Assembly (NCBI GenBank): GCA_021307315.1
Contig: JAJSPD010000028.1
Location: forward strand, 574,209-638,208
DNA length: 64,000 nucleotides
Origin: Bisporella sp. PMI_857
Lineage: Eukaryota; Ascomycota; Leotiomycetes; Helotiales; Helotiaceae
Direction of reading: 5' to 3'
Shown: positions 56,540 through 62,436 of the stretch, in pieces
How the letters are laid out: the number at the start of each line of letters is the position of its first letter
Numbering within the stretch: the stretch's first letter is position 1
The notes under the pieces: model-generated
Seen by the model: the letters and a program-made list of their open reading frames with translations, nothing else
Database searches by the model: none
What the model was told of the DNA's origin: nothing
Program-made: the position numbers and the translations under genes

Positions 56540-57552
56540 TTATGACGAAAATCCGTTGACAGTATGTTCATTTGGCGGAGAAAGCTCCATGTGTTGACCT
56601 TCATCTAGGCCAGCCAGGAGTTGATGTTTATGGGACCACTGCTTGATTGCCTCAAAGTCTCTGCATGAGTGCCAAGATTCAGAATGTGGTAAAGTTTTTT
56701 GCTTGAAGGGGACCCAGGTAAAGACGTTCAGCGAGATATCAGAATGGCACATGGTGGCTTGGCGCAAGAGTTCTAAGCAATGATCTGTGTGTTGAAAAAT
56801 GTCAGACCCCGCCTCTATACCAAAGACGAAATGATATTTACCAAGATGAGCTCTCTGCTCGCTTCGGTCATCTGGGGCCATTGAATCTAGAGTGATATTA
56901 TAGTACTCTGGATCGAGGGCCTTACGTATTGCATTTAAGCAGTGCAGCTGATGGAAGACTTCCAAACCAACAATGTAATGATCTGTATCTCCTGGAATCT
57001 GCGAGGTCTGGCTTGGTAGCTTAGAGGCTTGGTCTTTCGTAATACGAACAAGTCCAAAGGCTATAAAGAAATATTGTTAGCATGAAGGAGCTTCTGCCAA
57101 TGAATTCTTCGAGTTTTTCACACACAATATTCATTGCGCCATGCTTCGTCTACTTCTGGGGACGAGCCCATATATTTTGTTTTATCGTAGACCCCATCTG
57201 TGAACCAAACTGGACGGTATCTTACGGCCTCTTGTGCAGGCGCTAAATGATCTTACATTAGCAGGTTTCTTAATTTTTGGATCGGTCACTCTTATCGCAT
57301 GTTCTTACAGTATAGTACTTGTGGATTCACACATTCCGAATGTATATCTGACGGAGCTTTTAAGCACCGTGTAATAAAGAGCACAATAGCACCCATCAAC
57401 CACAATGTGCCAGCAACGAGCGATATAACATTTGTCTGCACCCTCCAGTGTCGCTTGTTGCTGACTTGGAATGCGTCAATTAGCTGTGTAGTGTCGTCTG
57501 TATCACTTTCGTTTCCCTGGAAGGTGCTGCAATCTTTAAAGTCGTTATCCAT
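56540..57552 (-). CDS. UstYa family protein (DUF3328), member 1
   Basis: Three exons (57552-57309, 57242-57126, 57060-56540) with introns of 66 and 65 nt (GTAAGA...TTTAG; GTGTGT...TATAG), both breaking after the first base of a codon, give about 293 aa. A transmembrane helix is at 41-62. The spliced middle reads YSPAQEAVRYRPVWF and YMGSSPEVDEAWRNEYSFG, the conserved UstYa block. Then come the two catalytic-type motifs HQLHC (157-161) and HTDHC (211-215), with the IPGD-x-x-Y-I-V-G-LEVFHQLHCLN context and CRDFEAIKQW near the end. Family knowledge: UstYa proteins carry out oxidative cyclisation of ribosomal peptides (ustiloxin, phomopsin, asperipin) and related oxidations or halogenations. It faces away from the small peptide gene at 58.6 kb. 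No lesion is seen. Confidence 0.88.
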
Positions 57553-58634
57553 GATAAAATGTTCTGATATGTGCGTGAACTTGAAAAAACATCAGAAGTC
57601 TATCTTGAGGCAGAAAGTCAAATATGAACTTTAAGGGAATAGTTCTAATATTATAGAAACCTCCCCCTAGAGTAAGCATGCATATTACACTACACAAGAG
57701 GCTTAGCCCAATATGCGCTCCAAATCTATATTTCCCTACGATATTACAGTTGGTCAGATTCTGCTATTCTGGGTTCTTTTACTACAAGTTGAGAAGTTAC
57801 CTTCCTACGATCGGCATAATTCTATGTACTTTCCTTTTTAGGTTATATCGGTATCCCGAACAAACTCTGATTTATGGTCGTCTTTTTCAACTATGCAAGG
57901 TAGCTGTCAGATGCAAGTGTGGGTCAAGATTAAGCACAGACAATGCACTCCGTCGCCAAGACTTGCTTTGAGTACTCAGCTGCTTACCTAGACACAAAAA
58001 ATGATTAGTGCGTGATGGCGATATTGTCGCGTGATAACCACGTAGCTGCATAAACGACAGTAGCATGCTCTTATTACACAAGGGCCTTGTCAAAAGAGTG
58101 GTGTTAGCGGCATGTTTTAGCTTGAAGACATATTGACCTGCATCATACAACTTCTTAGCAGCCCTTCTAACTGGGGGGATAAATTGTCCGAATTTGTACA
58201 ATAAGAAGTACTTGTTAATAGCACTTTTTCATTGGACAAAGTATATTGTCCTAAACCGTACAAAAAGCATTAAGATAAGGAAATCTTGGTCAGAGTTGTG
58301 TTTAGCACAAGTTATTCATAACACAATGACTATATGATTCGCTTGTCCAAGAAAGAGGAGGCAATAATTCTCTCTCCGAGGAATCTCTTTCTACAGGGAT
58401 TCATGAGAAACCCTCCAGCCTACAGCAGCTTATGTGCATTACCCTCTATTGTGTAAAACCTTGCATTCAAAATATACAAACCTAGAAAAGATTGATCCAA
58501 ATCTTGAATATATAAACCCCTTTGGCTGCTGGCCACAGCATCAATTCTTCAATCCATTAGAACCAAATCAAAACCTTCGATTATAATCACTCATAACTAT
58601 TACACCATCAGCAAGACTTCAAGCTCTCTTCAAC
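57553..58634. promoter_or_regulatory. Divergent promoter region between UstYa member 1 and the peptide gene
   Basis: 1.08 kb between divergent genes. For the peptide gene a strong TATA box (TATAAA at 58511-58516) lies ~120 nt before the ATG with a CAAC-ATG start context. A minus-strand 104-codon frame at 57887-58201 has no domain and is not called. Confidence 0.5.
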
Positions 58635-58853
58635 ATGAAGTTCGTCGTTCCTCTTCTTGCTCTACTGGCAGCTCCCTTCGCCTTCGCTGCACCTGTTGCA
58701 AAGGCCGTCGGCTCTGGTTCAATTATGGCCCTTCAAGAGAAGAGGGCTGAACCTGTCCTGGACAACCTTTCCACCCGATCCGAGCTCCCTAATGATGTGG
58801 TCGACATCGACAGCGCTTACCCATTCCCCAATGCCTGGAGAACTGGTAACTGA
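58635..58853 (+). CDS. Small secreted peptide, candidate RiPP precursor
   Basis: 72-aa frame. A signal peptide (MKFVVPLLALLAAPFAFA, cleavage after AFA or AAP) is followed by a short spacer and a dibasic KR at residues 37-38 (LQEKR|AEP), a Kex2 site. The remaining ~34 residues are acidic (NDVVDIDS) and end in an aromatic/proline-rich segment, AYPFPNAWRTGN. There are no cysteines. It lies between three UstYa-like genes, and dikaritin precursors have exactly this layout (signal peptide, KR site, Tyr-bearing core), although known ones usually carry several KR-separated core copies. Here only one copy exists, so it could instead be an unrelated secreted peptide. A donor-like GTAACT overlaps the last codons, so a spliced alternative ending is possible. 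A TATA box and purine-rich ATG context support expression. Confidence 0.7.
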   Translation: MKFVVPLLALLAAPFAFAAPVAKAVGSGSIMALQEKRAEPVLDNLSTRSELPNDVVDIDSAYPFPNAWRTGN

Positions 58854-60461: not shown

Positions 60462-61596
60462 GCTAGTAACGGGGTCACGCTATAGATTCAATAATAAGCT
60501 AACATGTTCTCGTTGCTTGTGCAGTATACACTCACAGAAGTTATTGAGCTGAATGTGATAAATTGCTCAACTTAATGGCGAGTTTCTAACCTGTGGTAGG
60601 AATTCACAGCGAAAATTCTGTAGTAAAAGTTAAAGTCTGGCCCAAGTTCGCTTTGGCAATCTGTGGCATTTTGATTTAGGGAACAAGGGTTCATGTTGCA
60701 TTGCCACTAACAACACACTCACCGCCTCAAGCTGCCGTAAATACATCTACTCCTAATTTAGTCATCATGTAGCTGTGGCACCGGAGAAGATATAGCTGAC
60801 TTATGGGGTAGGACTCAGTGTATTATGAAGTAAAATATTCTATACGTAAGGGTCACAGCGCCGTTTAAGAAGCCCTCAACCATTCATACTATGACATATC
60901 GTTATTGTAATGGTAGGTACAATTTTTATACTAATATCTAAAGGCGTGTATGCATCCTTGATTACAGCATTACTAATCACTGCTTATTGAAATGAGGGAA
61001 TCCTGCGCATGCTTACAGTAACGCAATGTCAACCCACAATGCTGCCCAGTAACCATACAAAGGTACAGCGGTTAAGGTGGTGTGATAATGCTAGCAGGCA
61101 CGCTGTGGATACTAAAGTGGGTATGAAAATACTTGTACACAGACACATTTTTTACCTTTTTTGCGTTTATCAGGTAGCAAGGTAGCCTAGCTATATTGTC
61201 GCTTAAAGTTTACATTATCCTAAAAGGGTATCAAAATTAATACCCGGCTGCTGTACCGAGAAAAGTTGTTCTTGCCTGTTCTCGCATCTTGGAACTGCCT
61301 TGTTAGTGACCATCACAAGACTTAACTCTTGTATCAAATTTATCCACTGCGTTCTTCATTCGCTGTTAACTTTATGTTGGCTGCGTGCAGGAAGTGGTCA
61401 GCTTAATCAGACAGACAGATATCTGGAAAACAGCTTTGGCAGTCCTTTTATTGGACAGACATGTATCTCGTTATATACCATTCTTGCTAACATCAGCTCA
61501 CAACTGATAAACGTCTCACGTTCCATTACTATGGCTTCTTAACTCATATAAAAACGACAAAATCACAACAATACTTTAATTCAGAATATTTTTACA
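60462..61596. promoter_or_regulatory. Divergent promoter region of UstYa members 2 and 3
   Basis: 1.1 kb between divergent genes. A TATA-like CATATAAAAAC lies ~50 nt before member 3. No other gene is supported; an 80-codon plus-strand frame at 61300-61542 lacks features. Confidence 0.4.
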
Positions 61597-62436
61597 ATGA
61601 AAAATAATGGGAAATATGAGCCAGTCCTCCAGGGAGAAAATGATAACAATGTTATTGTTACTTCCATAGACGTCTGTAATTGCAGCATACCATATCTTGA
61701 ACGCAAAAAATGGCACCATCTCCTAGCCGCAGTCATAGTCACAGCCCTGGTATCTGGAGTGTCCTGCTTCTTTATAGGAAGGCATTTCCTGAAGCAGGAA
61801 TTAGACTCAGACTGGTTATGTAAGATAGGACAGAATCCTTATTGCAGATAGGATTCTTCTCACAGAAGTTTATAGCCCCGCCAGGGAATATCGATCACAC
61901 TTTCAACTATCAAAAAGAATTCGTTGCCAGGCCCGGGGATGAGGCCAGGGAGTCTTGGGACTTGTTAATTCCGTGTGAGTTCTATACGGACATCTCACAG
62001 AAGATACACTAGCTAACAGTAAGCATTTCTAGCTGATCGAGGCATTGTAAAACACCCCCAAATATCGCCTGAGCCCAGGGGCCTAGCTGTTTTTCACCAG
62101 TTGCACTGCTTGGTAATTCATCACATATCCATTATATTCCATTCACTCTAATCTCTTTTTAAATCGATAAAGAACACAATGCGCCACGTATATTGGGCAA
62201 CGAAAGATGAAGCGGGAGAGGACCATAACCACCATGCTGCGCCTGGACACTTTCTGCATTGTATAGACTACCTACGCCAGGCTATTATGTGTAATGCGGA
62301 CACTAACCTGGAACTTGTTGATCCGACTCGGGATGGTGTGACAGGATACGGATTCCCGAGGAAGTGTCGAGATTATGACCGGGTGACTCAATGGGCAGAT
62401 CAATGGAAGACCAATATTACAACGACTCGTGCTTAG
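61597..62436 (+). CDS. UstYa family protein (DUF3328), member 3
   Basis: Four exons (61597-61819, 61876-61974, 62033-62112, 62173-62436) give about 221 aa. Introns are 56 nt (GTAAGA...TTATAG), 58 nt (GTGAGT, branch GCTAAC, TTCTAG) and 60 nt (GTAATT...ATAAAG). Read unspliced, the frame stops at 61849 and looks broken; the 56-nt intron resolves this. A transmembrane helix is at 42-60. The middle reads FNYQKEFVARPGDEARESWD, then GIVKHPQISPEPRGLAVFHQLHC with HQLHC at 129-133, and HFLHC at 160-164 followed by IDYLRQAIMCNADTNLE, the UstYa consensus. The segment between the two motifs is shorter (26 aa) than in member 1 (49 aa). It is divergent from member 2 and presumably acts on the same peptide. 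Confidence 0.86.

Follow-up and report, generated by a model that had tools for sequence, protein, structure and literature searches.

Does the stretch from 56540 to 62436, in which three proteins with paired HxxHC motifs surround one 72-aa ORF, encode a single pathway to a modified ribosomal peptide (RiPP)? It lies in the window, that is, the whole 64,000-nt stretch of DNA that was analysed (C200:574209-638208 of the 55.6-Mb, 284-contig genome of Bisporella sp. PMI_857), and a first-pass annotation had read it as a dikaritin-type cluster, possibly a minimal one. All four gene models drawn there are intact and read through once introns of 56-66 nt are removed, the peptide gene and gene 2 having none (Table 1).

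Table 1. Features of the locus, with positions in the window
Feature	Position	Strand	Structure	Basis or remark
Gene 1	57552..56540	-	3 exons (57309-57552, 57126-57242, 56540-57060; introns 66 and 65 nt), 293 aa	Splice model and Pfam PF11807
Possible TATA box, TATATAAA	58509..58516	+		118 nt upstream of the peptide ATG; putative function
72-aa precursor candidate	58635..58853	+	Intronless, between genes 1 and 2	Intact ORF
Signal-like start	58635-58688	+	Residues 1-18	
Pro-part		+	Residues 19-37	
Single KR site	58740-58745	+	Residues 36-37	
Candidate core	58746-58850	+	Residues 38-72	Contains Y62, F64 and W68
Gene 2	60461..59802	-	Intronless, 219 aa	Intact ORF; family without a Pfam model
Gene 4	61597..62436	+	4 exons (61597-61819, 61876-61974, 62033-62112, 62173-62436; introns 56, 58 and 60 nt), 221 aa	Splice model and Pfam PF11807
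LTR-like repeat	63178..63412		About 235 bp, many genome copies	Contig then ends at 64000

The two outer genes encode UstYa (DUF3328) proteins. PF11807 matched gene 1 at E 2.5e-45 and gene 4 at E 1.3e-25, both far over the Pfam cut-off; a lack of DUF3328 matches in members 1 and 3, which the first-pass annotation had named as one of several refuting outcomes, was therefore not observed. The paired HxxHC motifs were found where that annotation had placed them, at residues 157 and 211 of gene 1, 157 and 187 of gene 2, and 129 and 160 of gene 4. For gene 4, 116 three-intron models with short GT..AG introns and both motifs kept were listed, and the best splice score was tied between two of them, which differ in the first acceptor.

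Gene 2 is of another kind. A Pfam search of its protein gave no match at E up to 1, and the 25 bits set for PF11807 were not reached. A protein search returned 16 proteins including gene 2 itself, the named ones coming from Phialocephala, Acephala and Leptodontidium, and B0O99DRAFT_615592 of Bisporella sp. PMI_857 is the protein encoded at a second place in the same genome (L049, on contig C13). A profile search, in which the best 7993 candidates were scored, gave at least 35 proteins including gene 2, and none of the 35 carries a precomputed Pfam domain. Among the 37 proteins of both searches, both HxxHC motifs are present in 25, one in 10 and none in 2, several of the latter being partial. 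All of the 20 aligned members share C83, G84, A90, C95, C109, W124 and the two motifs, and PF11807 touched 2 of the 20, with a best E of 0.056. Profile-to-profile comparison by hhalign matched the family to UstYa at 88.6% (E 2.6e-6; 73.0% with 40 members) in an alignment that spans both motifs, versus 0.0-0.2% for controls made from the reversed and six column-shuffled UstYa profiles. A structure model of gene 2 (pLDDT 82.3) predicts an anchor helix at 39-73, both motifs in helices and a compact outer domain; the corresponding model for UstYa, for which L005 was taken, was of low quality (pLDDT 54.4), so that the arrangement common to the two is suggestive only, and no match was found among solved structures. 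Judged by its predicted anchor helix and ectodomain, its two HxxHC motifs and its profile similarity, gene 2 belongs to a UstYa-like superfamily, and its family is a remote relative of UstYa. The claim of three UstYa-like proteins accordingly stands for genes 1 and 4 by PF11807, and for gene 2 it fails by Pfam and is retained as a remote relationship by hhalign.

The candidate precursor reads MKFVVPLLALLAAPFAFA-APVAKAVGSGSIMALQEKR-AEPVLDNLSTRSELPNDVVDIDSAYPFPNAWRTGN, in which the hyphens stand at the signal-like part and the KR site, the two putative processing steps. The earlier description of a secreted-type 72-aa peptide with a KR amid the HxxHC genes agrees with the scans made: a home-made signal-peptide score (not SignalP; threshold 4.0), applied to the ORFs that begin with ATG on either strand of the 64-kb window, gave 5.17 for the peptide, and the one other ORF that reached 4.0 has 31 codons and scored 4.25. 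Five shuffled windows yielded 7 ORFs at or above 4.0, 0 of them with at least 50 aa and a KR. The KR pattern also matches 3 further window sites that have no signal start, so that a KR scan alone is weak. The aromatic C-terminus that had been described was not borne out, as the peptide ends in RTGN with its aromatic residues upstream, within the last 11. For the 35-residue candidate core an unmodified monoisotopic mass of 3871.87 was computed. Two further ideas about this gene were dropped, namely a later intron with its donor at a GTAAC overlapping the stop, for which no repeat or homologue spoke, and a Y-x-F-P-N core common to the peptide and a precursor on contig C226, where the letters are intronic; as a DNA pattern Y-x-F-P-N has 340 genome matches versus 299 for the reversed control.

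The peptide is a single-core orphan. A protein database search returned 1 protein of 1 candidate, the peptide itself, a second copy was not found in its own genome, and repeat and KR scans detected no repeats and one KR only. It could be asked, then, whether this is a small secreted protein of the usual sort, such as an effector or a hormone with a Kex2-cut pro-part, the real substrate of the HxxHC proteins being encoded elsewhere, perhaps past the contig end; the single KR and the want of repeats and homologues fit such a product, and a repeat precursor could lie beyond the LTR-like repeat in which the contig breaks off, 1.6 kb past gene 4. This is judged unlikely, though a serious contender, since only two ORFs in 64 kb have a signal-like start, of which the peptide, placed amid three HxxHC genes, is one, and since at other places with relatives of gene 2 a precursor is equally intimate with HxxHC genes. 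For such a single-core orphan, a role as precursor and substrate is put forward conditionally, from its position, its signal-like start and its KR site.

Those other places carry much of the argument for a RiPP cluster. Gene 2 has 12 matches in its own genome at 11 places, the window included; for the ten others parts of each contig were read, 74,410 bases in total. At 7 of the 11 places a secretory precursor-like gene is no more than about 10 kb away; these are the window, with two UstYa genes and the single-core peptide, and 6 of the 10 others (C44, C260, C13, C226, C275 and C86). C13 (L049) has a UstYa gene and a precursor whose three and a half repeats lie one to an exon, with a core around VEGYTGPGG. 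C226 (L050) has a UstYa gene and a precursor with two repeats of CYYKRxAxGxLxGYKRDxAGxExLC, again one per exon. C275 (L052, L059) has several UstYa genes; its precursor, in which each of the two repeats of ARSPQGSFIWLWYGEDADPTAESTE occupies one exon, is separated from the gene-2 relative by 9.5 kb. C44 (L054) encodes an intronless 202-aa precursor with 27-residue repeats between KR sites, and C260 (L056) an intronless 139-aa precursor with 14-residue KR-spaced repeats, flanked by two gene-2 relatives. At C86 (L053, L060) an apparent UstYa gene start, recognised by eye, stands at the contig edge together with a precursor-like gene of 3-nt exons, thirteen of which are consecutive. The stretches read at C174, C199, C219 and C237 yielded no precursor; a UstYa gene is present at C199, and the gene-2 copy of C219 has 3 stops. 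The genome list of UstYa genes (75 matches) is a lower bound that missed the C86 edge, so that at C44 and C260 the finding of no UstYa means none on these contigs by that search or by our own profile over the stretches read. The gene-2 family thus adjoins UstYa genes and secretory precursor-like genes repeatedly within one genome, and the RiPP reading of the first-pass annotation gains from these related gene sets beside secretory repeat precursors.

Among the fetched loci, a part of the 75 UstYa matches, the best relative of gene 1 is L006 at C275 (40% over 174 aa), and the best relatives of gene 4 are at C178 (54% over 59 aa), then L052 at C275 (38% over 87 aa), then C199. Relatives of genes 1, 2 and 4 and a Trp/Tyr-bearing two-repeat precursor therefore all lie within about 12 kb at C275, and as all three enzyme relatives are held near a precursor there, this place provides the best argument for the window as a cluster of the same kind. 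The C260 core has no aromatic residues, so the gene-2 family, if active there, must do something else too.

With the repeat detector L049, L054 and L056 were clear, L055 and L057 gave weak small stretches, and 2 of 30 UstYa loci were flagged; it also flags window 17750-18105, so that the repeat scan alone is weak. Signal scores above 4.0 in the ten gene-2 stretches were additionally obtained for a 25-codon ORF in L049, a 33-codon ORF in L055 and the gene-2 relative in L058, and in the 30 UstYa loci for 7 rows, including the C275 precursor and two starts in L008. A chance association with Kex2-repeat genes can be estimated from the 5.25 such genes per ascomycete strain given in the accessible part of Umemura 2020 (PMC7329392): in 74,410 bases of 55.6 Mb 0.007 would be expected, and two strict-looking ones were found (C44 and C260), for which the Poisson probability is about 2 in 100,000, and still about 4 in 10,000 with a fourfold gene number in this genome. 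This count excludes the exon-per-repeat precursors, which the Kex2-repeat definition may miss.

How complete the cluster is depends on its borders. To the left, the matches in a domain scan of ten ORFs at 30-54 kb, short exons excluded, were to PAN, to DUF5672 and, below threshold, to MGAT4; a tyrosinase, methyltransferase, transporter or peptidase was not found among them. To the right, the contig end coincides with the window end (638208) inside a repeated LTR-like element, window 62900-64000 having 47 own-genome matches, mostly over query 279-513 (the LTR-like part), so that an absence of further tailoring genes on that side cannot be claimed and the suggestion of a minimal cluster is not supported. 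Both this break of the assembly and the intergenic stretches of about 1 kb would be compatible with a decaying or fragmentary cluster that makes nothing, a case that four intact ORFs with conserved motifs make very improbable indeed, as does their GC3 of 0.44-0.53, like that of three reference ORFs (0.46-0.48); the peptide, at 0.53 versus 0.44-0.48 in its neighbours and the reference ORFs, differs mildly. Nor did the ten ORFs include a synthase domain, which bears on another option, namely that what the UstYa proteins and gene 2 modify is a small metabolite of non-ribosomal or other origin. UstYa proteins do hydroxylate and chlorinate in the cyclochlorotine pathway, according to the accessible part of PMC12048977, and this makes the option conceivable; with a putative secretory peptide flanked by three different HxxHC genes, it is nevertheless improbable here.

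Among described systems, the locus is most like the dikaritin/UstYa RiPP clusters (ustiloxin, phomopsin, asperipin-2a and the epichloecyclins), in which several two-HxxHC UstYa proteins likewise surround a predicted secretory precursor with Kex2 sites. An older definition of dikaritins called for five genes, including a tyrosinase, a methyltransferase, a transporter and a peptidase. Dikaritin precursors combine a signal peptide with repeated Kex2-spaced cores, whereas the window peptide has a signal-like start, one KR and a single core; unlike dikaritins, the window also has a third HxxHC protein that Pfam misses, and no tyrosinase, methyltransferase or peptidase was found on its sequenced side. 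A strict dikaritin label is not supported, since the core is not repeated and the scan of ten ORFs showed neither a tyrosinase nor a methyltransferase. By a later definition, however, as given in the accessible part of PMC12048977, UstYa/DUF3328 proteins with two HxxHC motifs define the class, and genes 1 and 4 encode such proteins. Its class-defining enzyme makes the locus a UstYa RiPP cluster, though its precursor is not that of a standard dikaritin. The lichen UstY clusters of the same paper, in the part available, resemble it in having two-HxxHC UstY homologues and signal-peptide genes without repeats, and their authors considered a single core peptide possible; the lichen signature genes described there are all DUF3328, while gene 2 is not.

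A second comparison is with Kex2-processed repeat proteins (KEPs), defined by tandem repeats, 3 or more in number and each of 8 aa or longer, that lie between Kex2 sites (Umemura 2020, PMC7329392, accessible part). The C44 and C260 precursors, with signal-like starts and KR-spaced repeats, are like them; the window peptide, which has no such repeats, is not. According to the same part of that paper, DUF3328 is absent near 6120 of 7878 Kex2-repeat genes (78%), KEPs without DUF3328 neighbours have no known cyclase, and neighbours were surveyed by Pfam 32.0 only. The gene-2 family would therefore be invisible in that survey, and here the neighbour is just such a Pfam-invisible HxxHC gene. The new element here is gene 2: in the searches made of the open literature, including the accessible parts of PMC7329392, PMC12048977 and PMC6339444, neither its family nor an association of that family with Kex2-repeat genes was found described.

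Based on these findings a model is proposed that 56540-62436 is probably one RiPP cluster, in which the precursor would be cut once at Lys-Arg and its tail oxidatively modified by the three HxxHC proteins. The peptide would be taken into the secretory pathway and cut by a Kex2-type protease after residue 37, which would free the 35-residue part, and the three predicted membrane-anchored proteins would act on it there through a UstYa-like oxidation, most likely cross-linking, of the tail at Y62, F64 or W68. Gene 2 would be a UstYa-type enzyme, though a divergent one, and not a helper protein. A broader proposal, offered tentatively and with slightly less than even confidence, is that gene 2 represents a second family of HxxHC enzymes for peptide modification, one invisible to Pfam, that works with or without UstYa, acts in the window on a single-core precursor, and explains part of the large pool of fungal Kex2-repeat peptides for which no modifying enzyme is known.

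If the gene-2 family does modify peptides, it would offer a new handle for genome mining, and a single-core precursor, if true, would widen the search past repeat detection. Clusters like C44 and C260, where a Kex2-repeat precursor was found but no UstYa, would then become predictable RiPP clusters, and the finding would bear on the Kex2-repeat genes without a DUF3328 neighbour that the available part of Umemura 2020 (PMC7329392) counts.

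In a phase-0 splice model of a predicted secretory gene on contig C86 of the same genome, a first exon of 87 nt is followed by a run of thirteen exons of 3 nt each (NPQGPGAPPPSPN), and the last exon measures 15 nt, giving a predicted product of 46 aa in total, while the 12 introns separating the tiny exons would measure 54-86 nt. The pattern AG-NNN-GTRWG was found 13 times within 1239 nt at this gene; shuffling gave 0.27 occurrences on average and never more than 3 in 1000 shuffles, and the window contains at most 2 per 950 nt. Alternative splice choices are possible for the predicted exon structure. 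Functional microexons had been undescribed in filamentous fungi, according to the abstract of a 2024 paper (PMC11121469).

The C86 gene is adjoined by two 2OG-Fe(II) oxygenases, a DPP IV-type peptidase and a relative of gene 2, the remotely UstYa-like HxxHC membrane-protein gene of the window; such a neighbour set would suit a proline-rich peptide. Another gene-2 relative, on contig C219, carries three stop codons within its match (L057, region 3314-3496) and is probably a relic.

Predicted precursor and precursor-like genes and their locations
Feature	Stretch and position	Contig
Secretory gene, 3-nt exons (phase-0 splice model)	L053 5561-6500 + L060 1-240	C86, about 5561-6640
Secretory precursor, exon-per-repeat	L049 4351-3823	C13
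Secretory precursor, exon-per-repeat	L050 5786-6204	C226
Secretory precursor, exon-per-repeat	L059 324-730	C275
Intronless Kex2-repeat precursor adjoining gene-2 relative	L054 2358-1750	C44
Intronless Kex2-repeat precursor adjoining gene-2 relatives	L056 5059-4640	C260

No UstYa gene was found near the two intronless precursors, either among the matches listed by a UstYa search of the contigs, a lower bound, or by a profile over the fetched stretches, and the C260 core is devoid of aromatic residues. At a UstYa locus on contig C46 (L008), signal-like ORF starts around 3258 (+) and 1036 (-) flank the UstYa gene on both sides, the former possibly extending across an intron to a KR site. A window ORF (17390-18250) with QIGDGQIQAPT-type tandem repeats and a hydrophobic C-terminus is perhaps a cell-wall protein.

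In the predicted models of the C13, C226 and C275 precursors, every peptide repeat occupies its own exon, with separating introns of 55-79 nt. Such exon-per-repeat precursor genes could be overlooked by ORF-based repeat mining.
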